A DNA stretch of 44,491 bases from Gloeobacterales cyanobacterium ES-bin-313 (GTDB taxonomy: Bacteria > Cyanobacteriota > Cyanobacteriia > Gloeobacterales > Gloeobacteraceae), in assembly GCA_014379585.1 (NCBI GenBank), contig JACMLN010000043.1:1-44491 (forward strand), given 5' to 3'. Shown piece after piece: positions 12,270-21,886 of the stretch. The notes beneath the pieces were generated by a model. The model ran no database searches and was not told the DNA's origin. It was given only the letters and a program-made list of their open reading frames with translations. The position numbers and the translations under genes were made by a program. Every line of letters starts with the position of its first letter. Position 1 is the first letter of the stretch.

Positions 12270-12905
12270 GTGTCCGGGGATCTCTGGTTTTCCCTCCGAC
12301 TGTCCTTGATCGTCGCTAGTTCTGCCACACTGATCGTCGCTTTTGTCGGGACTGCCTTTGGCTATTTGCTCGCCCGTTATCGGTTCTGGGGCAAAGATAT
12401 TTTGGATACTCTGCTTGCCTTGCCCCTCGTGCTTCCGCCAACGGTCGTCGGTTACTATCTCTTGGGCTTGTTGGGAAAGCAGGGTTTACATCTTCTGTTT
12501 ACTCCCCAAGCAGCGATTGTTGCGGCGAGCATCATGGCATTGCCTTTAATGGTGCGTACCTCCCGCGCGGCCATCGAAAGTGTCGATCCAAGCTACGAGC
12601 AAGCCGCCTATACCCTCGGCAAAAGTCGCTTTCGGACTTTTTTGCAAGTTACGTTGCCCTTAGCCTGGAAAGGGTTAATGGCTGGGGTTGTGCTCAGTTT
12701 TGCCCGTGCCCTCGGTGAATTTGGCGCTACGCTCATGGTAGCTGGCAACATTCCTGGCAAGACCCAAACCATGCCCTTAGCGATCTACGAAGCAACTCAG
12801 AGCGGTGAAGAGATGCTGGCATTCCTTCTCGTTGCCGTTCTCACCACAACGGCCTTCGGGTTTCTACTCATCACCAATCGTCTTACCCAGAGCCGCCCAT
12901 GGTAG
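12270..12905 (+). CDS. modB: molybdate-type ABC transporter permease
   Basis: A 211-residue inner-membrane permease with about five hydrophobic spans. The EAA loop region YEQAAYTLGKSRFRTFLQV is followed by PLAWKGLMAG and FARALGEFGATLMVAGNIPG, the latter strongly typical of ModB. The GTG at 12270, two bases after the preceding stop, fits the family length; the frame is open further upstream, but that part overlaps the GH13 gene and is unlike ModB. No ribosome site is evident, so coupling to GH13 translation is likely. It overlaps modC by seven bases. No periplasmic ModA is nearby. Confidence 0.87.
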   Translation: MSGDLWFSLRLSLIVASSATLIVAFVGTAFGYLLARYRFWGKDILDTLLALPLVLPPTVVGYYLLGLLGKQGLHLLFTPQAAIVAASIMALPLMVRTSRAAIESVDPSYEQAAYTLGKSRFRTFLQVTLPLAWKGLMAGVVLSFARALGEFGATLMVAGNIPGKTQTMPLAIYEATQSGEEMLAFLLVAVLTTTAFGFLLITNRLTQSRPW

Positions 12906-13609
12906 GGCTGCGGGTCGCCATTCAGAAAAAATTAGGCAACTTCTCGTTGTCTGTAGATTTTGCTGTCGAGGCCAGTTTTGTCGTACTCTTCGGGGCAAGT
13001 GGCTGCGGGAAAAGCAGCACTTTGGCAGCTCTTGCTGGTTTACTCCAACCTGAAAAAGGTTGTATCCAACTTGGAAGCCAGCTCCTTTTCGATGGTGCGC
13101 GAAAAATAAATCTTTCTCCCCAGCAGCGACGGATCGGTTACGTTTTTCAAAATTACGCTCTGTTTCCCCATCTGCGCGTCCGCGAAAATATCTGTTTTGG
13201 CATCGATCAACTTTCAAAAACGGCCCAACAAGAGTGCCTTGATCGCTTAATTTCGATCTTCCGACTCGATAGGCTGACCGAGCGTTACCCCGGCGAATTG
13301 TCCGGTGGCCAACAGCAACGCGTCGCCCTCGCCCGCGCCCTTGCCCCTAACCCCCAACTTCTGCTGCTCGACGAACCTTTCAGTGCTTTAGACGAGGAAT
13401 TGCGCGACGAATTGCGCGACGAACTCAAAGATCTCCATCAGCGACTTAACTTGCCGATCTTGATGGTTACGCATAGTCGCGCTGAAGCCTTACAACTGGC
13501 TGAAACCGTCATCTTGATGAAATCGGGTTCTGTAAGCGCCATCGGTTTGCCCGCCGAAGTGCTTTCAACTTCGCGCAGTATGGGTCAGACCCCAAGGTTT
13601 AGTTGGTAA
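12899..13609 (+). CDS. modC: molybdate-type ABC transporter ATP-binding protein
   Basis: A 236-residue ATPase. Walker A is GASGCGKSS (about 33-41), the Q-loop is GYVFQNYALFPHL, the ABC signature LSGGQQQRVALARAL, Walker B LLLLDEPFSALD and the switch histidine is in MVTHSRAEA. The phrase DGARKINLSPQQRRIGYVFQ is ModC-like. It is about 110 residues shorter than E. coli ModC and lacks the C-terminal TOBE domain that senses molybdate. It would pair with the adjacent modB; tungstate or sulfate-type substrates cannot be excluded. Confidence 0.86.
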   Translation: MVGLRVAIQKKLGNFSLSVDFAVEASFVVLFGASGCGKSSTLAALAGLLQPEKGCIQLGSQLLFDGARKINLSPQQRRIGYVFQNYALFPHLRVRENICFGIDQLSKTAQQECLDRLISIFRLDRLTERYPGELSGGQQQRVALARALAPNPQLLLLDEPFSALDEELRDELRDELKDLHQRLNLPILMVTHSRAEALQLAETVILMKSGSVSAIGLPAEVLSTSRSMGQTPRFSW

Positions 13610-13688
13610 TACCGTTTCGTCTTTAAATGGAGCGATTTAATCATTGTGTAGGGGCAAACCATGCTGCGCCCACCATCAGGTAATGGGA
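13610..13688. other. intergenic sequence with short inverted repeat before repeat copy A
   Basis: The stretch after modC holds GGGGC and GCGCCC arms (around 13650-13670) that can pair across about ten bases. A similar motif is common between genes in cyanobacteria. No gene is supported. Confidence 0.4.
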
Positions 13689-13991
13689 ATACCGATCAAA
13701 GCATCCATTGATTTCAATTTTGGTGAGTTGCGGTAAATATGGCGAACTGCATCAGGGGTCAGGGGCGAGCCCCTACCCCTGAAACCTCTACCCCATGGGG
13801 GACGGACGCGCCCGTCCCCCGCACCCCTGCACCCCTCGGCGAACTTTTACGGCTTGATACTTGGAATTGCATCGGGTGCTACGCGTGGTGGTGCGGAATT
13901 GGAGGCGGATCGGGAGAGGTTTGAGTTAGCGATGGGAGGCGCATTGGGTTTGGATGTCCTAGGCACTCATTCCAATGACGAATCGTTATCA
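13689..13991. repeat. hairpin-rich dispersed repeat, copy A
   Basis: About 303 bases that align along nearly their whole length with 18737-19120 in the same orientation. Two GC-rich hairpins stand near the left side: 13753-13781 (outer arm CAGGGG, inner arm AGGGGC, one bulged base) and 13797-13820 (GGGGGACGG paired with CCGTCCCCC). The right third (about 13876-13990) is the most conserved between copies and keeps an open reading frame. The ends form an imperfect inverted pair, ATACCGAT against ATAACGAT, as a MITE would. Short open frames across it are not credible genes. Confidence 0.75.
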
Positions 13992-14137
13992 GGGCACAAA
14001 AGTGAGGATTTTCTTGGAGGTCTTCAGATTTCTATACTATAGTGAGAGGCTAAGTGTAGATCAGTGACACTATAATCACCAAGTTCGCAAACTCCACAAC
14101 GTTTGTTGTTCCACACTCAAAAAGCATTTTTATCAAG
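13992..14137. other. leader region of bestrophin-like gene
   Basis: An AT-richer stretch between repeat copy A and the channel gene. It contains TATACTATAG near 14032-14042, which could be a -10 element. No gene is supported. Confidence 0.3.
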
Positions 14138-15082
14138 ATGAAGAAAATTAAGATAAAAAGAAGGTCGTGGTTTCGATCGACCTTTCAGCTCCGTGGTTCG
14201 GTCATTCCAGCCATCATCGAGCGATCCATTGTTTGTGCAGGATTCGGACTGTTCGTTTCGATCCTTTACTACTACAAACTACCTGTTTCAATACCTGTAT
14301 TAGGCAACGCTATTCCCAGTGTTGTACTTGGTTTAGTACTGGTTTTTCGCACCAACACTGCCTACGATCGCTTTTGGGAAGGAAGACGCTTGTGGGGTTC
14401 TTTAGTCAACACACTGCGCAATTTAGCATGGCAGATTTGGGTGAACGTTGATGAAACAACTCCTGCAAATGACAATATTTCAGTCCGTGACCGTAAAATT
14501 GTTGCCTTGCGATTGTTGATTGCCTTTGCACTTGCAAAAAAGAAACATCTCAGATCAGAACCCCCTGATTCGAAACTCGCTTCCTTCCTATCTGTGGCCC
14601 AATATTCTCTACTCCAGAAAACTCGGCATATGCCCTTAGAAATTGCGCGGTGGCTTGGAGAGCACCTGAAGCAAGAGTGGCAACAACAACGGCTGCCACT
14701 CTATCAGCTTACAGCGATGCAAACCTTAATTAACACTTTGATGGAATGCGTCGGTGGTTGTGAACGTATTCTTAAAACGCCGCTGCCGCTCGCCTATTCA
14801 ATTCACATCAAGCAGTTAGTCCTTCTTTACTGTTTGGTGCTGCCATTTCAGTTTGTTCGAGACCTGAACTGGTGGACAGCGCCATTTACTGCACTGGTCA
14901 GCTTGACCCTATTTGGAATTGAAGAAATTGGGATCGAGATTGAGAACCCATTTGGCACTGATGCCAACGATCTGCAACTAGAGGCAATTTGCAACACAAT
15001 TGAGCAAAACATTGAAGAATTTATCGCAACTGAAGAAGTGGGCTTGATCGCCTTTTCGGAAGATGCAAAAACATTGAACTGA
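14138..15082 (+). CDS. bestrophin-family ion channel
   Basis: A 314-residue membrane protein of the bestrophin (UPF0187/RFP-TM) family, pentameric anion channels; some thylakoid members move chloride or bicarbonate. Family markers are the opening RSTFQLRGSVIP, LVLVFRTNTAYDRFWEGR (residues about 68-85), LNWWTAPFTALVSLTLFGIEEIG and IENPFGTDANDLQLE near the C-terminus. About four hydrophobic spans are visible. It is the first gene inside the segment flanked by the two repeat copies. Base composition is more AT-rich than its upstream neighbours, consistent with, but not proof of, transfer. Confidence 0.88.
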   Translation: MKKIKIKRRSWFRSTFQLRGSVIPAIIERSIVCAGFGLFVSILYYYKLPVSIPVLGNAIPSVVLGLVLVFRTNTAYDRFWEGRRLWGSLVNTLRNLAWQIWVNVDETTPANDNISVRDRKIVALRLLIAFALAKKKHLRSEPPDSKLASFLSVAQYSLLQKTRHMPLEIARWLGEHLKQEWQQQRLPLYQLTAMQTLINTLMECVGGCERILKTPLPLAYSIHIKQLVLLYCLVLPFQFVRDLNWWTAPFTALVSLTLFGIEEIGIEIENPFGTDANDLQLEAICNTIEQNIEEFIATEEVGLIAFSEDAKTLN

Positions 15083-15123
15083 AGCAAAGGGGCTTGGCCA
15101 GTCAGTATTTACTTATGTTGATG

Positions 15124-15151
15124 CTTTACTTTTTGCTCAAGTGTGTATTAT
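15124..15151 (+). promoter_or_regulatory. candidate promoter of NIL-Crp pair
   Basis: CTTTAC (15124-15129) and TATTAT (15146-15151) are 16 bases apart. The -10 falls inside the 31-base inverted repeat at 15135-15165, so a protein bound there could repress it. Confidence 0.4.
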
Positions 15152-15165
15152 GATTTGACTTGAGC
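15135..15165. promoter_or_regulatory. operator-like inverted repeat upstream of NIL-Crp genes
   Basis: Perfect 8-base arms GCTCAAGT (15135-15142) and ACTTGAGC (15158-15165) flank 15 bases. It lies 71 bases before the NIL-domain gene, whose partner is a Crp/Fnr regulator, making it a natural candidate autoregulatory site. The arms do not match the NtcA (GTA-N8-TAC) or CRP (TGTGA-N6-TCACA) consensus. Confidence 0.5.
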
Positions 15166-15236
15166 TATCTACGATAAATACGGTGAAATACTGGGGTTTG
15201 TTCGAGATGCTTGCGCCCACTCGCTTCTGGAGATAA

Positions 15237-15821
15237 ATGACCATGACCTTATCGAAAGACCGGACTAGCCCTCTGTCGATCCACCTGCGGATTCCTCAGC
15301 AAATTGGTAGTGGAAGCACGAGTCATTGGCACATTGATTTTTCAGGAGTTACTTTTGATGGTCCTCAGCAAGATGGTATGTGGGACATTCAATTACAGGG
15401 CGCACTTCGCTCTGGGGTAGCTGGTGAGTTGCCTCCCCACGGAGTCGAATTCATCGTGAACCAATTTACCTGTGATGGCGTGCTCACCGACTATCGACAA
15501 CTCAGCCAGCCCGTGGTCTTTGCTGTGGGCGATAAAGCTTCTTTGCTCCCTGTCAAAAAGCCTGCCCCTCCCACCAGGAAACGAATTCGTGTCTGCATTG
15601 ATCAGCACTTTAAGCACGAACCGATTCTCTCTAACTTGATCACCCATCACGGTTTGAGTGTGAATATTCTCGCTGCGCTCCTTGGTTCCGATAGTCAACA
15701 CGATGGTTGGTTTGATCTCGAATTGCGCGGGACTGCACAACAAGTCGAAACAGGACTGAACTATCTGCGCGATTTGAATCTGCAGCTGTGGTTGGAGTCC
15801 TCGGCATCAAGGGAGTGGTGA
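15237..15821 (+). CDS. NIL-domain protein
   Basis: A 194-residue soluble protein. Residues about 116-188 form a NIL domain: EPILSNLITHHGLSVNILAA, DGWFDLELRGTAQQVE and a final DLNLQLWLE. NIL domains are best known at the C-terminus of the methionine ABC ATPase MetN, where they bind methionine. The first 100 residues (for example SHWHIDFSGVTFDG and GMWDIQLQGAL) may be a second, diverged sensory-like module. The Crp/Fnr regulator starts one base after its stop, so the two are very likely co-translated. A ligand-sensing role linked to sulfur is inferred from the NIL family, not shown. Confidence 0.8.
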   Translation: MTMTLSKDRTSPLSIHLRIPQQIGSGSTSHWHIDFSGVTFDGPQQDGMWDIQLQGALRSGVAGELPPHGVEFIVNQFTCDGVLTDYRQLSQPVVFAVGDKASLLPVKKPAPPTRKRIRVCIDQHFKHEPILSNLITHHGLSVNILAALLGSDSQHDGWFDLELRGTAQQVETGLNYLRDLNLQLWLESSASREW

Positions 15822-15822
15822 C

Positions 15823-16380
15823 ATGGTCGGCTTAAAAGTACTTAACTCTCCAGCACGTTATTATGACTTCGAGCGACGCAGCCATTTACCCTTAGAAACC
15901 TACAGTCTTTGGCAAGTGATTCAAGGAATTGTCCGCGCTGTTACTTGGCGAGAAGATGGCAGTTTGATTGTGCTTGGCATTTTTGGCCCAGGGGATCTCG
16001 TCGGCAGACCCCTATGTGGTGCAGATCCCTATCAATTGGAGTGCTTAACAGCAGTTTCTGCACTGCAGTGCCCAACGGATCAATGGCCAGACTTAATTAA
16101 AGGTTTGATTGCCCATGCCCGCCAAAGTAACCAATTGCTTGAAATTGTGCAATGTCGCCGCACGAATGTCGCCCTTGAGCAAATGTTGCATTGGCTATCG
16201 AAACGTTTTGGCCAAGAGACAGAAGGTGGAACATTGATCGATATTCAGTTGACCCATCAAGATCTAGCTGAATTGATTGGAGCCACTCGTGTCACCGTCA
16301 CAAAACTGCTCAACGACTTCGAGAAACAGGGTATCATCACTCGAAATGCAGCACGCCGTCGAATTTTGATCAGGAAGTAG
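15823..16380 (+). CDS. Crp/Fnr-family transcriptional regulator
   Basis: A 185-residue regulator, shorter than the usual 200-230. Residues 20-85 resemble the cyclic-nucleotide-type barrel (LWQVIQGIVRAVTW, IFGPGDLVGRPL), with no cAMP-binding arginine motif visible. Residues 144-175 are the winged helix: LTHQDLAELIGATRVTVTKL then NDFEKQGII. Cyanobacterial relatives include NtcA (nitrogen) and CysR (sulfur). The NIL-domain partner would suit a CysR-like role, which is inference. It converges with the FAD/NAD(P) gene, the two stops being 14 bases apart. Confidence 0.88.
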   Translation: MVGLKVLNSPARYYDFERRSHLPLETYSLWQVIQGIVRAVTWREDGSLIVLGIFGPGDLVGRPLCGADPYQLECLTAVSALQCPTDQWPDLIKGLIAHARQSNQLLEIVQCRRTNVALEQMLHWLSKRFGQETEGGTLIDIQLTHQDLAELIGATRVTVTKLLNDFEKQGIITRNAARRRILIRK

Positions 16381-16394
16381 AGAACGATGACTCA

Positions 16395-17783
16395 CTATTT
16401 CTGGGCATGTAGCTGGCAAAGCAACGTCGCTAGCTTTTCAGCCTGCACCCTTAGCTCTGGAACAGCCGTAGATTCCCAAAATTGACCGCGCAACAAGCAC
16501 CCTAAAGCAAATAGCTGATCGCTGGGCTGACTCTGAAGGTCAATAAGTCCACCGTTGGTATCCGCATCGACTCCCAAGTACAGGGGATCAGGCCGCAAAA
16601 GTCCCTGGTCATGTAGGTTGGTGAGCAATGGGTTGTCGATTTTTTCTAGACGGCACTGTGGCCCTGTGCAGTTGATCACGCGCTGAACAGTTTCTATCTC
16701 GATGTTCTGGCTACCTCGTTTCAACCAGTGAACGGCAATGGTTGAGGACCGTTCTCTAAACCCCAAAAGTCTGCCAGCTTGGACGCTGAGGCTCTTGTTG
16801 GCTAACTCACACTCCATTACGGCATGGATCGATGGTGCCAGTCGATGGCGCATGACTTCCCAATAAGGACGCACATGGCGAAGGAATCGGCGGCGTTCGT
16901 CTAGAGGCAATGACTGCCAAAGTTTGACTGTATGTGGGCGAAGGGCATCGATAACCGACTGCCAATTTGTGTGTTGGGCGGCTGATCGACGCAGCAATTG
17001 ACACAGGGATCGCACATTGCTGGGGAGTTGATCCGCCGAAAAAGTAAAGGGTGCGGATTGAAGTGGATGACTCGCCGGCAGTAATCCCCGACGCGACAGG
17101 GCGAGAATCGATCCAGTAAACCCGGTTGAGCGCAGTTCAATCACCTTATCTACCATCGTCAGCCCGCTACCAATGAGCAGCACTGGCTCAGTCGCATCAA
17201 GGTCTGCGAGGGCTGAAGCGCACCAAGGATTGCGAATATATCGAGGATCATCGTAGAAAGAAGCACCGAATTGCACAGATGGATTGGCAGGGAGCGCATT
17301 GCCGATCGCGAGTACCAGACGATCACAACTTTGCTGGCCACCATCAGCCATTTGCAGATCGAATCCACCGCCACTGCGTGGCATGGCATTGATAGCTTGC
17401 CCTTGTACATACTCTAAGCGCTCATTTTTCGCTTCAGCGAGCAAGTACTCCAAGTAAGCACCGTATTGCTTGCGAGGAACAAAGCTATGGGCTTCGACGG
17501 AGTTTTCTTGATTTTGAGAGCGGCACCAGTCCAGAAAATCTAAAGGTGTATCAACAAAAGCACTCATTTTTGCCGCAGGAACATTCAATAAGTGCTCGTT
17601 ACAAGTCGTGGAGTAGGCGACTCCCCGTCCAAGTCGTTCGCCAATGAGCACTACCCGCACACCACCGCGCCGCAGAAGGTGAATCGCCAAGAGCGTACCG
17701 CTAAAGCCAGCACCAACGATCGCGACTGTTGGTATGCTTTGTGCGGGCATTGCACCAGTTTTTCTTTTCGAAGCAACAACCAT
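16395..17783 (-). CDS. FAD/NAD(P)-binding oxidoreductase-like protein
   Basis: A 462-residue protein with an N-terminal FAD Rossmann motif, VAIVGAGFSGTLLAIHLLRR (residues 20-39), and a second dinucleotide motif LLIGSGLTMVDKVIE near the middle. Segments GRGVAYST and HLLNVPAAKMSAF are typical of the NAD_binding_9 (PF13454) group of flavoproteins, whose substrates are mostly unknown. No membrane span is seen. ATG 17783 or 17750 could start it; neither is decided by a ribosome site. It converges on the Crp gene, and its upstream region has a nested palindrome (17822-17848). Confidence 0.85.
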   Translation of the reverse strand: MVVASKRKTGAMPAQSIPTVAIVGAGFSGTLLAIHLLRRGGVRVVLIGERLGRGVAYSTTCNEHLLNVPAAKMSAFVDTPLDFLDWCRSQNQENSVEAHSFVPRKQYGAYLEYLLAEAKNERLEYVQGQAINAMPRSGGGFDLQMADGGQQSCDRLVLAIGNALPANPSVQFGASFYDDPRYIRNPWCASALADLDATEPVLLIGSGLTMVDKVIELRSTGFTGSILALSRRGLLPASHPLQSAPFTFSADQLPSNVRSLCQLLRRSAAQHTNWQSVIDALRPHTVKLWQSLPLDERRRFLRHVRPYWEVMRHRLAPSIHAVMECELANKSLSVQAGRLLGFRERSSTIAVHWLKRGSQNIEIETVQRVINCTGPQCRLEKIDNPLLTNLHDQGLLRPDPLYLGVDADTNGGLIDLQSQPSDQLFALGCLLRGQFWESTAVPELRVQAEKLATLLCQLHAQK

Positions 17784-17821
17784 GCAAGATCACTAGATAA
17801 GTGCTTCTAGCATGGGCTTCG

Positions 17822-17848
17822 TAGTACGTCCAAATTGGTGATGTACTA
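17822..17848. promoter_or_regulatory. nested palindrome upstream of FAD/NAD(P) gene
   Basis: Outer arms TAGTAC (17822-17827) and GTACTA (17843-17848) enclose an inner palindrome CCAAATTGG (17830-17838). It lies 39 bases before the minus-strand ATG. On the minus strand TTGGAC overlaps it and is followed 18 bases later by TAGAAG, a possible promoter. It could be an operator covering the -35. Confidence 0.45.
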
Positions 17849-18229
17849 TACAAATCCAAGGAGATCACAATCGTTGCCAACTTGCCGGTTCGGGTACAAA
17901 CAGCCAGCAAATGTGATCCAGATAACAGCTGTCGAGTATTTGCGATCTAGTTTCCGGATTCTTTGTGACTTTTATCGACCTCTAAACCGGGATCGGCATG
18001 TTTTTTAAGAAATGTTGCAATTTTTGAATGCAAGTGTTAGGGTCTGAGCATGTAGGGAGAAAGCTTACTGATTTAAAGCAGAGGTCATGCATATGCGGAC
18101 TCCGCGCCACACTTCCTCGGTCGCCTTTGAAGCTTCAGTTCAGCCGATTTTTAAGGATTGCCAAGTTAGCTGCACGCAATCTTAGTGCCTAGCTCGTCCA
18201 TAACTTTCTGAAGTTTCTGCATTTATTAT
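17849..18229. other. intergenic stretch between divergent FAD gene and small unknown gene
   Basis: About 380 bases without a convincing gene. It holds an inverted repeat TTGCA / TGCAA with a 9-base spacer (18015-18033) and a possible 32-codon frame at 18087-18185. A TGTGA-N6-TAACA half-match to a CRP site is near 17913-17928 but is too weak to call. Confidence 0.4.
18087..18185 (+). CDS. possible 30-32 residue peptide
   Basis: An ATG frame beginning MHMRTPRHTSSVAFEAS and ending in TQS. AGAGG at 18080-18084 is well placed for the second ATG at 18093. It follows the TTGCA/TGCAA inverted repeat by about 55 bases and lies upstream of the 18308 gene, so a leader peptide is conceivable. No family is recognised; chance is a real alternative. 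Confidence 0.2.
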   Translation: MHMRTPRHTSSVAFEASVQPIFKDCQVSCTQS

Positions 18230-18307
18230 TTGTTCGAGGTTTTACTACAAACCGGGGACGTTTCACTGCTATTCCTTCGGGATTATTCAAGTTTGGAGCT
18301 TTTGCTG

Positions 18308-18646
18308 ATGGCTAAGCCTAACTCATACCTCATTCAAGCCCTGAGATTGATGTCTCAAGAAAATGCTGAATTTCTCCGTCCTTTCCTTGCTCAGGCTATC
18401 CCGCCGCATGAGCTGGAGACCTGCACGGCTGAAAAGCTTGATGAATACATACTGCACGTCAGAATATGGGCGCTTCGAGAGCCAGAAGCGTTTGATCGGG
18501 GAGTGACCAAGACAATCGAGTGTTTCCTATTTCCAGAGTCAGAGCAAATTGCGACAAACTTAATGGAAGAGTATTCGCTATTGCAAATCGCCTGGATCAC
18601 TCAAGAGGCAGCACGTCACTTGGAGTGCTGCGGCCTATTTCGATAA
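18308..18646 (+). CDS. hypothetical protein
   Basis: A 112-residue acidic, mostly helical protein from the ATG at 18308; GGAG about ten bases upstream supports this start. A TTG at 18230 would add 26 residues but lacks a ribosome site. It reads MAKPNSYLIQALRLMSQENA at the start and carries several cysteines late (ECF, HLECCG). I recognise no family, signal peptide or membrane span. It is the last gene before repeat copy B. Confidence 0.55.
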   Translation: MAKPNSYLIQALRLMSQENAEFLRPFLAQAIPPHELETCTAEKLDEYILHVRIWALREPEAFDRGVTKTIECFLFPESEQIATNLMEEYSLLQIAWITQEAARHLECCGLFR

Positions 18647-18736
18647 AATTGTATTTTTGGTATCAATGCGGCGGGACGGATGTCAGAGGTGAGGCTTTTT
18701 ATTCTCCCAAAATGCTCTGAATGCCCGATCTACCTG
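18647..18736. other. short intergenic sequence before repeat copy B
   Basis: No gene, hairpin or promoter stands out between the small unknown gene and the start of repeat copy B. Confidence 0.3.
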
Positions 18737-19120
18737 ATACCGACCAACTGCGCATTTTTCTATTTTGGTAAGTGAGATAAATATAGCGAACGGCATTAGG
18801 GGGCAGGGGCAAGCCCCGCCCCCTAAAACCCCCGCCCCGTGGGGGACAGAAGCCTGTCCCCCACACCCCCTTGGCAACTTTAGTGGCTTGGTACTTGGTG
18901 TTGTTGGGTTGCGCAGATTTCGTCTCACGTTGCGGGCGGGTGCGCAACCACCCAAATCTGTGGACTGGTGGCACGGTAGGTATGACGCTGCGCGTCCCAG
19001 GCTCATGGCGCTACGCGTGGTGGTGCGGAATTGGAGGGGGATCGGGAGAGGTTTGGGCTTCCGATGGGAGGTACATTGGGTTTTGCCTTAGCTACTCATT
19101 TCGATGACGAATCGCTATCA
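18737..19120. repeat. hairpin-rich dispersed repeat, copy B
   Basis: The second copy, about 384 bases, same orientation as 13689-13991. Hairpin 1 is 18796-18826 (outer arm TTAGGGGGC, one bulged A, loop AA). Hairpin 2 is 18839-18864, a perfect 11-bp stem GTGGGGGACAG / CTGTCCCCCAC with loop AAGC. It has about 100 extra bases (roughly 18902-19004) with their own inverted pairs (GGTTGCGC / GCGCAACC; GACGC TGC GCGTC). The ends show an imperfect inverted match TGATACCGA / TGATAGCGA, starting at 18735. Long open frames here are by-products of GC-rich repeats. Confidence 0.75.
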
Positions 19121-19206
19121 ATTGACAACCAAACCACAAATCCGAAAGAACATGTTTGAAAGTTTGACTTGGTACCATGGGCTAAAGCTAAGTTTCTAGG
19201 AATTCG

Positions 19207-20452: not shown

Positions 20453-21886
20453 ATGCTCGAAAATCGACTTTTTTCTTGTGTATCGGTAGTCGCATTTTTA
20501 TTGTTTGGCTTGAGTCACCAGCCTGCAGATGCGCAGAGTTGCTCAACTTCAGATGCACTCATAACCGGTACCAACAGTGGTGCTTGGTACACTACTCTTT
20601 CGCCTTCAGAGCACTTTGATTCTGGACGCTCGCAGGTATTCAAAAATGCTTGTACACTCAACCAGATCACTAATTCTGATGGCCCCTATTCGATCAACAC
20701 CCGTGTTGCACCTGGGATTTATCCGGCGCTCTACAATATTGCGACCCGCAATCAGAATGAGTTGTTTATCTATGGCGGATTTGCTGGACAAGGAGGAACC
20801 TATGTAGCCCGGCTCGATCCAGATACCTTGAATGAACTGTGGCGCTCAAGTGTCACAATCCCTTCAAGCCAGTGGAGTTTTATTGGGGCGATGGGTGTTC
20901 ACGGCAACGGATATGTTTACAGTACCCAGAGCAATATTCTGGCTAAAATCGACCCAATAACTGGTAGAAAACGACAGCTTAGTTTGCCGCAACTGGCTGC
21001 ACCGACAGGTACTGGCGCGGCCTACAACGGCTTCGTCACTACTCCAGATGGGCTGATTGTTGCTAAGTCTATGGAGCGTGGTCCCTGTACTAGCGATACA
21101 ACCAGTGCTTTGAGTTGCGTTTTGAGTAACAATCTCCCATCGACCATCGTTGTCGTCAATCCCGATACTTTAACGGTGATTGCCCAGATCAATACATCGG
21201 AACCTGCCCTGGGAAGAATCATGACCGAACGGCATGATGGTATTGACTATATCTACGTGCCCGGAATTAGTCGTCTTATTCGCTATCGCTTTAGCAATGG
21301 CACTTTGAGCCTCGATACGAGTTGGGGGCCGGTCGGTTATGGGCAAGGCGCCAACGCTAGTGGTGTTGGGATTCTTGGCAATTTTGCTGTTACCCAAACC
21401 AACTATGTCCCGTCCAGCACCCCGTCTTATGTTGTGGCCGCAAACATCTATGACAGCACTCAGCAATACCAAATCCAACCTTTTCCACCGTTAAGCCGCA
21501 GCAGCCTAAGTTGGGTTCCTGATAAAGCAGTGCTCGATAGCGAAAATAACCTTATCTACGCAGAAGATACCTATGCTGCACAGATTGCTGCCCTCACCAT
21601 TAACAGCAGCGGACTGAGCGTAGTCTGGAAGCTGAATAGTGTAGCTACTGGTTTTCCTGCTCTGCTGGGAACGACTTCTGCGCGACAACTGGTGATTGCT
21701 AGTCTGATCAGCACCGGGGATACTTTAACCTGGCGGAACCCAGCCACAGGTGCTGTGCTTGCACAAAGTAGCGGCCTTGCCTCAAAAGCTACCATCGGAG
21801 CCATTGCCCCTGGCTTCAAAGGGCGCTTCTACTACCCATCTTTTTACTCTGGCCAACTCATTGAACTGACCCCGCAATCGCCATGA
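20453..21886 (+). CDS. secreted protein with beta-propeller-like repeats
   Basis: A 477-residue protein with a signal peptide (hydrophobic residues 9-20, likely cleavage after ADA at about 27). The mature part is rich in Ser, Thr, Gly and Asn with repeated blade-like strands: GGTYVARLDPDTLNELWRSS, NILAKIDPITGRKRQL and STIVVVNPDTLTVIAQI each pair a value with a D-P-x-T turn as in PQQ-type or WD-like propellers. No catalytic motif is seen. Four cysteines (for example in SCSTSD and GPCTSD) could form disulfides in the periplasm or outside. Function unknown; a scaffold or binding role is inferred. Confidence 0.7.
   Translation: MLENRLFSCVSVVAFLLFGLSHQPADAQSCSTSDALITGTNSGAWYTTLSPSEHFDSGRSQVFKNACTLNQITNSDGPYSINTRVAPGIYPALYNIATRNQNELFIYGGFAGQGGTYVARLDPDTLNELWRSSVTIPSSQWSFIGAMGVHGNGYVYSTQSNILAKIDPITGRKRQLSLPQLAAPTGTGAAYNGFVTTPDGLIVAKSMERGPCTSDTTSALSCVLSNNLPSTIVVVNPDTLTVIAQINTSEPALGRIMTERHDGIDYIYVPGISRLIRYRFSNGTLSLDTSWGPVGYGQGANASGVGILGNFAVTQTNYVPSSTPSYVVAANIYDSTQQYQIQPFPPLSRSSLSWVPDKAVLDSENNLIYAEDTYAAQIAALTINSSGLSVVWKLNSVATGFPALLGTTSARQLVIASLISTGDTLTWRNPATGAVLAQSSGLASKATIGAIAPGFKGRFYYPSFYSGQLIELTPQSP

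Follow-up and report, generated by a model that had tools for sequence, protein, structure and literature searches.

What is maintained in a repeat whose hairpins change on both sides of the stem at once? The question was raised by a 44,491-nt stretch of contig JACMLN010000043.1 (the window) from Gloeobacterales cyanobacterium ES-bin-313, in which direct reading of positions 13401–19200 found two repeat copies, here called A and B (Table 1). An earlier interpretation of the bare sequence (the sequence-only reading) had proposed that paired changes between them maintain a folded RNA or a cruciform, within a non-autonomous element with imperfect inverted termini. In our view there is about an even chance that A and B are members of a high-copy, non-autonomous cyanobacterial repeat, similar to miniature inverted-repeat transposable elements (MITEs) and repetitive extragenic palindromes (REPs), in which two triplex-capable hairpins in tandem are the part that is maintained. 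The features on which this view is built, as read from sequence, are the repeat family, the inverted ends of its long copies, the covariation of both hairpins and of the third strand at hairpin 1, the spread through the class and a convergent gene context.

Covariation of the two hairpins

The changes quoted in the sequence-only reading were present: hairpin 2 was GGGGGACGG/CCGTCCCCC in copy A (13797–13820) and GGGGGACAG/CTGTCCCCC in copy B (18839–18864), and in stem 1 an outer C-G was replaced by T-A and an inner T-A by G-C. The interval given for them, 13753–18864, covered the repeats, but it also took in ~5 kb between them with ordinary genes for a bestrophin, a NIL-domain protein, a Crp-like regulator, and a FAD/NAD-binding protein, and left the left end of copy A (13607) outside.

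The host genome (G000; 4.26 Mb in 198 contigs) was the sole representative of its genus among the genomes searched. BLAST of this genome with each copy as query gave 46 and 41 matches, at mostly different places, and a covariance model built from 66 cores found 103 matches, with rough E-values. The core was ~125 nt long, in an element of ~300–470 bp. The structure tested on the 66 aligned cores comprised two hairpins with 24 pairs. Paired stem cells accounted for 95.9% (88.3% in shuffles), two-sided changes affected 154 cells (54 in shuffles) and 8 of the 24 pairs, and the covariation score was 0.245 against 0.107, a value that none of 500 shuffles reached. When the partners were slid, the score collapsed to 0.005–0.101. 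In hairpin 1, the pair formed by columns 23 and 37, which adjoins a conserved bulge, showed C-G, A-T, and T-A forms; in hairpin 2, the outer pair occurred in all four Watson-Crick forms (G-C, T-A, C-G, and A-T), and an inner pair switched between A-T and G-C on several backgrounds. The plus-strand cores of both copies folded better than 200/200 shuffles (z −3.3 and −4.8). Hairpin covariation is a property of the family and not an accident of two copies, and the proposal that the fold is kept by compensation was supported both here and across the class.

Unpaired stem mutations at neutral rates in other copies had been named as the observation that would speak against a maintained fold, and the outcome of this check was mixed. 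In a minimum spanning tree, a crude device for sequences that recombine, pair-breaking or pair-repairing steps were common (34, with 23 on terminal and 11 on internal branches), but compensated double changes were also found, 9 on terminal and 13 on internal branches. This pattern was consistent with a structure that is kept in source copies and decays in individual inserts. What the family appears to keep is its folded shape rather than its sequence.

A mirror tract beside the hairpins

The C/T tract that follows hairpin 1 mirrored the 3′ arm of that hairpin, as in the arm-linker-tract series CCCCGCCCCC-TAAAA-CCCCCGCCCC, CCCCGCCCTC-TGGA-CTCCCGCCCC, and CCCCTCCCTC-TGGA-CTCCCTCCCC. In 65 copies of the host genome, 533 of 584 positions formed compatible purine-motif triads, against 480 ± 5 with the tracts permuted (0/5000), and the 16 distinct variants gave 125/143 against 112 ± 3 (0/5000); these tests are inflated by the relatedness of the copies. 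By a scoring scheme of our own, and not the ITxF program, hairpin 1 had at most one mismatch over nine triads in 61 of the 65 copies, with linkers of 4–6 nt. A shorter mirror tract also followed hairpin 2; the covariation tests took in the hairpin-1 tract only. The tract likewise followed the purine arm in 39 elements of genomes other than the host (221/273 vs. 204.5 ± 3.9 permuted; 0/5000), and arm and tract matched in length and content: GGAGG occurred with CCTCC, GGGGA with CCCCT, and G6 with C6.

A hairpin with a third tract is the layout of an intrastrand triplex, as in the BoxC/PIT/TM repeats of E. coli, and the element may form one. Hairpins alone cannot decide between RNA and DNA. However, a triplex needs mirror images, and a mirror third strand is more readily reconciled with a DNA triplex than with an RNA. 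Thus, of the folded RNA or cruciform proposed earlier, the fold stood, and its covarying mirror third strand favours structure at the DNA level over the RNA level, with DNA as the probable folded molecule.

Family, spread, and surroundings of the copies

The copies were modular. Long ones started with TAATACCGTTTCGTC and finished with GACGAATCGGTATTA, and they carried ~26-bp imperfect inverted ends (TAATACCG...CGGTATTA), which are terminal inverted repeats in the sense used for MITEs. The end motifs gave 43 hits, against five for a reversed control, and paired only ~360–470 bp apart. The imperfect inverted termini of a non-autonomous element were recovered in the long copies, although the pair quoted for them, TGATACCGA/TGATAGCGA, marked the ends of copy B (18735 and 19120) and not those of copy A, whose right end was TGATAACGA at 13991. 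Many copies were truncated, many started at the internal boundaries GGATACCGATC or TTTTGGTG, and some had a different right arm; the left end of copy B was an internal boundary of the long form. B-type copies contained an extra module of ~104 nt, and in three of them (L038, L039, and L045) an AT-rich tract, GAAAACCATTGAATTCAAAATT..., replaced GCTACGCG, apparently through the insertion of a second repeat. The variants of hairpin 1 and hairpin 2 were discrete and assorted independently between the 66 aligned cores, which indicated that recombination or conversion between copies had occurred.

BLAST against 58 related genomes, including five from the same family, found only one 52-base hairpin match, in genome G031. 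The first covariance model had matches in 17 of 291 genomes of the class, mainly in one family. A first exact-pattern scan of named genomes found no match, and a related exact pattern was present in the named records of Oculatella sp. LEGE 06141, Cyanobacteria bacterium FACHB-471, and metagenome-assembled genomes (MAGs) of Leptolyngbyaceae. A second model, built from the copies with this related pattern, detected the double-hairpin core in 106 of 390 Cyanobacteriia genomes sampled, representing 60 of 160 genera, with many genomes at the per-genome scoring limit. These copies shared the plan CTTGGGGG..CCCCCAA-ACCCCC-TGGGGGACG..CGTCCCCCA-ACCCCCTCC, and hairpin 2 covaried across the class (35 sequences, 93.4% paired, score 0.140 vs. 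0.079 shuffled; 0/500). Inverted pairs were found at some loci (L188, L193, L197, L204, L206, and L219). In genome G265, four direct copies of the core lay exactly 365 bp apart (C1:3872416–3873598; L194/L211). At a site common to a Leptolyngbyaceae MAG and strain FACHB-471 (L148 and L149), the core was nearly unchanged while spacer and flanks had diverged, for which homogenisation between copies could be an alternative cause. The literature gave nothing relevant for GTCCCCCA with cyanobacteria or Leptolyngbya repeats, and the work of Elhai et al. on small repeats of cyanobacteria may hold a prior description.

Simple open reading frame calls were made around 70 copies in the host genome, and both neighbours were resolved for 47, which were convergent in 26 cases, co-directional in 18, and divergent in three. 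Promoter avoidance is enough to explain this convergent bias.

Table 1. Parts of the two repeat copies, in window coordinates.
Feature	Positions	Strand	Basis or remark
Copy A, full-length long form with both inverted ends, without the extra module	13607..13991	+	Matched by the family search of the host genome; an end motif at each end (13607+, 13991-)
Copy A left inverted end, TAATACCGTTTCGTC...	13607..13632	+	Overlaps TAA stop of ABC-transporter gene 12899-13609
Copy A hairpin 1, TCAGGGGTCAGGGGC GA GCCCCTACCCCTGA, one bulge	13752..13782	+	Core alignment, covariation, folding
Copy A third strand 1, CCTCTACCCC, mirror-like partner of hairpin 1 3′ arm	13785..13794	+	Sequence; tract covariation in 65 copies
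Copy A hairpin 2, GGGGGACGG-ACGCGC-CCGTCCCCC	13797..13820	+	Covariation, folding
Copy A right inverted end, minus strand TGATAACGATTCGTCATTGGAATGAG	13966..13991	-	End-motif search
Copy B, from internal boundary TGATACCGA to TCGCTATCA, with extra ~104-nt module	18735..19120	+	BLAST in own genome, copy comparison
Copy B hairpin 1, TTAGGGGGCAGGGGC AA GCCCCGCCCCCTAA, bulged A	18796..18826	+	Core alignment, covariation, folding
Copy B third strand 1, CCCCCGCCCC, exact mirror of 3′ arm CCCCGCCCCC	18829..18838	+	Sequence; tract covariation
Copy B hairpin 2, GTGGGGGACAG-AAGC-CTGTCCCCCAC	18839..18864	+	Covariation, folding
Copy B third strand 2, CCCCCT, mirror of hairpin 2 arm TCCCCC	18866..18871	+	Sequence alone
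B-type module, absent in A-type copies, with palindromes GTTGCGCA/TGCGCAAC and GACGCTGCGCGTC	18903..19006	+	Presence/absence; diversity 0.03-0.11 in part
Copy B right inverted end, minus strand TGATAGCGATTCGTCATCGAAATGAG	19095..19120	-	End-motif search

The first three bases of copy A (13607–13609) are themselves the stop codon of the gene upstream, and at C144:5492 (L108) the same end motif followed immediately on a long open frame whose last base is 5491. Conservation within the element was highest in GCACGGTAGGTATGACGCTG of the B-type module, which had a diversity of 0.03 and was more conserved than the hairpins. Open frames of ~91–108 amino acids on both strands of copy B (18765–19091 and 18683–19006) are probably spurious and present an annotation risk by gene callers. 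A protein-coding reading of the element was rejected: the frame differed between variants (a 1-nt difference in hairpin 1, and a shift with the B module), and the frames were taken as chance. Two further open frames in the window, 18230–18646 (138 amino acids) and 20453–21886 (477 amino acids), had no Pfam match.

Known repeats and competing explanations

The BoxC/PIT/TM repeats consist of three G/C-rich blocks with 6–15-nt stems and short loops, in many intergenic copies; the block rule allows at most one mismatch (in stems of 7 or longer) and loops of 1–6 nt, and G/C-rich triplex motifs are reported to be abundant in several cyanobacteria (PMC4666352). The element also had three G/C-rich blocks, short loops, 6 to 10-nt stems, and at most one mismatched triad, in many intergenic copies that were sometimes inverted pairs, and the blocks, stem, and loops of hairpin 1 fell within the rule. 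However, sequence and block order differed from the TMECO consensus CCCTCNCCC-N3-6-GGGNGAGGG-N3-GGGNGAGGG, the third block was on the other side of the hairpin, and two motifs stood in tandem inside a longer repeat with inverted ends. The element also displayed three-strand covariation, whereas the main text of PMC4666352 makes no mention of covariation or compensation.

The element was further compared with mobile repeats of cyanobacteria. Cyanobacterial MITEs such as Nezha are short and non-autonomous, with inverted ends and many copies. The element shared all of these features, but no consistent target duplication was read at its full-length copies, no autonomous partner was found in an assembly that breaks at repeats, and it has a conserved double hairpin with third strands. 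Nezha is cited in a study of REP, BIME, and REPIN sequences, in which GTAG and CGTC super-families are recognised and the unit is a palindrome of 20–40 bp tagged at its foot (PMC3733652). Like those, the element was palindromic, high-copy, intergenic, and mosaic, and sometimes formed inverted pairs. As neither the foot tag and RAYT of REPs nor the target duplication of MITEs was found, we filed it as a repeat of the triplex kind carried by a MITE/REP-like element, akin to TMECO but not a copy of it.

In our main reading, each hairpin with its third tract is arranged, on the G-rich minus strand of these copies, as in an intrastrand triplex of the purine motif (triads G.G-C with A.A-T or T.A-T), and the strand would fold once it is single, during lagging-strand replication or under supercoiling. 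The fold would be recognised by a putative copying or recombination activity, presumably of a mobilising enzyme acting in trans. Source copies would keep the fold via compensating changes, individual inserts would decay, and inserts would persist mainly at the 3′ ends of genes, where they may do least harm. More tentatively, we speculated that a class-wide mobile repeat has a tandem intrastrand DNA triplex as its selected unit and as the substrate of a putative copying activity.

A structured RNA is a rather unlikely alternative explanation, in which the element is transcribed, in a 3′ untranslated region or as a small RNA, and works in folded form, for example in RNA stability or 3′-end formation. 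The strong hairpin covariation with its conserved bulge, the position of most copies downstream of genes, and the low folding energies agree with it. However, Rfam had no match in the window or the copies, relaxed threshold included; neither hairpin was called terminator-like in the search for intrinsic terminators, and no T-run followed them; and an outer closing stem round both hairpins, suggested by eye in several copies, was without signal (−8.65 vs. −8.55 kcal/mol permuted). A double hairpin also needs no mirror third strand, which as RNA would require protonated C. The mirror also weighs against a purely mutational origin, in which template switching at quasi-palindromes and gene conversion restore pairing without selection: template switching gives inverted copies and duplication gives direct copies, and neither yields mirrors. 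Conversion or recombination does occur, as the shuffled hairpin variants indicated, and the stems varied per site as fast as the loops. The bulge of hairpin 1 was nevertheless present in nearly all copies and a mismatch in 29, though palindrome correction should erase both, and we consider this origin unlikely.

In a further alternative, the element is a classical REP/REPIN that a Y1 (RAYT/TnpA) transposase mobilises by acting on its hairpins in single-stranded form. The hairpin units, the loci with inverted pairs, and the bias to 3′ ends agree with it, and the host genome does contain two Y1 genes. These were its only ones, and both lay in IS605-type loci: C179 (L118), an element in which the open frames for TnpA and a TnpB-like protein are divergent, and the closely similar C108 (L122). 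An origin from these resident elements (PATE-like, with shared IS200/IS605 ends) was rejected, as the ends of C179 and C108 were dissimilar to those of the element. The element was longer than a REP or REPIN, no RAYT (Y1) was found for it, no Y1 gene recurred near the copies in other genomes, and neither hairpin foot had a GTAG or CGTC tag; mobilisation of this kind is quite improbable. Some copies did have a GTAG-preceded palindrome (GTAGGGGC...GCGCCC), but it was confined to their outer arm. In copy A, a remnant of such a palindrome, GTAGGGGCAAACCATGCTGCGCCC, lay in the left arm (13651–13675); other copies had GTAGGGGCGCAGCATGCTGCGCCC, and the alternative right arm of short copies had a similar palindrome at its end.

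Several observations weigh against a mobile repeat maintained as triplex-capable hairpins. The sequence-only reading had advised a search for target-site duplications and a matching transposase. By reading, no consistent duplication flanked the full-length copies, and no transposase was detected inside such ends or repeatedly next to copies; mobility was therefore inferred from copy number and scatter. No end pair surrounded a segment longer than ~470 bp in this assembly, which breaks at repeats and in which DDE families were not searched singly, and no gene family recurred beside copies in other genomes, save via shared insertion sites or ordinary genes. The stems were no more conserved per site than the loops (diversity 0.155 vs. 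0.143), which shows that the bases are not frozen and that pairing is what is kept, and pair-breaking changes were frequent in individual copies. Shared ancestry and recombination among copies cause the permutation tests to overstate independence. In genomes other than the host, few informative positions bear on whether the third strand is parallel (A followed by T in 5/8). For the E. coli analogue, triplex formation was observed in vitro, but promoter or terminator activity was not, and in vivo footprinting gave no stable triplex (PMC4666352).

The meaning of bacterial intrastrand triplexes has been open since BoxC/PIT, which form in vitro yet gave neither a promoter or terminator signal nor a stable one in vivo. 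With ~100 copies in a single genome, relatives in 60 of the 160 genera sampled, and a third strand that changes together with the hairpin, this repeat family is a natural data set for a comparative test of triplex conservation. So far unnamed, it also fragments assemblies and invites spurious gene calls. If a tandem triplex is indeed the selected unit of a class-wide mobile repeat, the covariation of its three strands would offer comparative evidence that living genomes maintain the geometry of a triplex, and not just the hairpin, and that a putative copying activity uses it as substrate.

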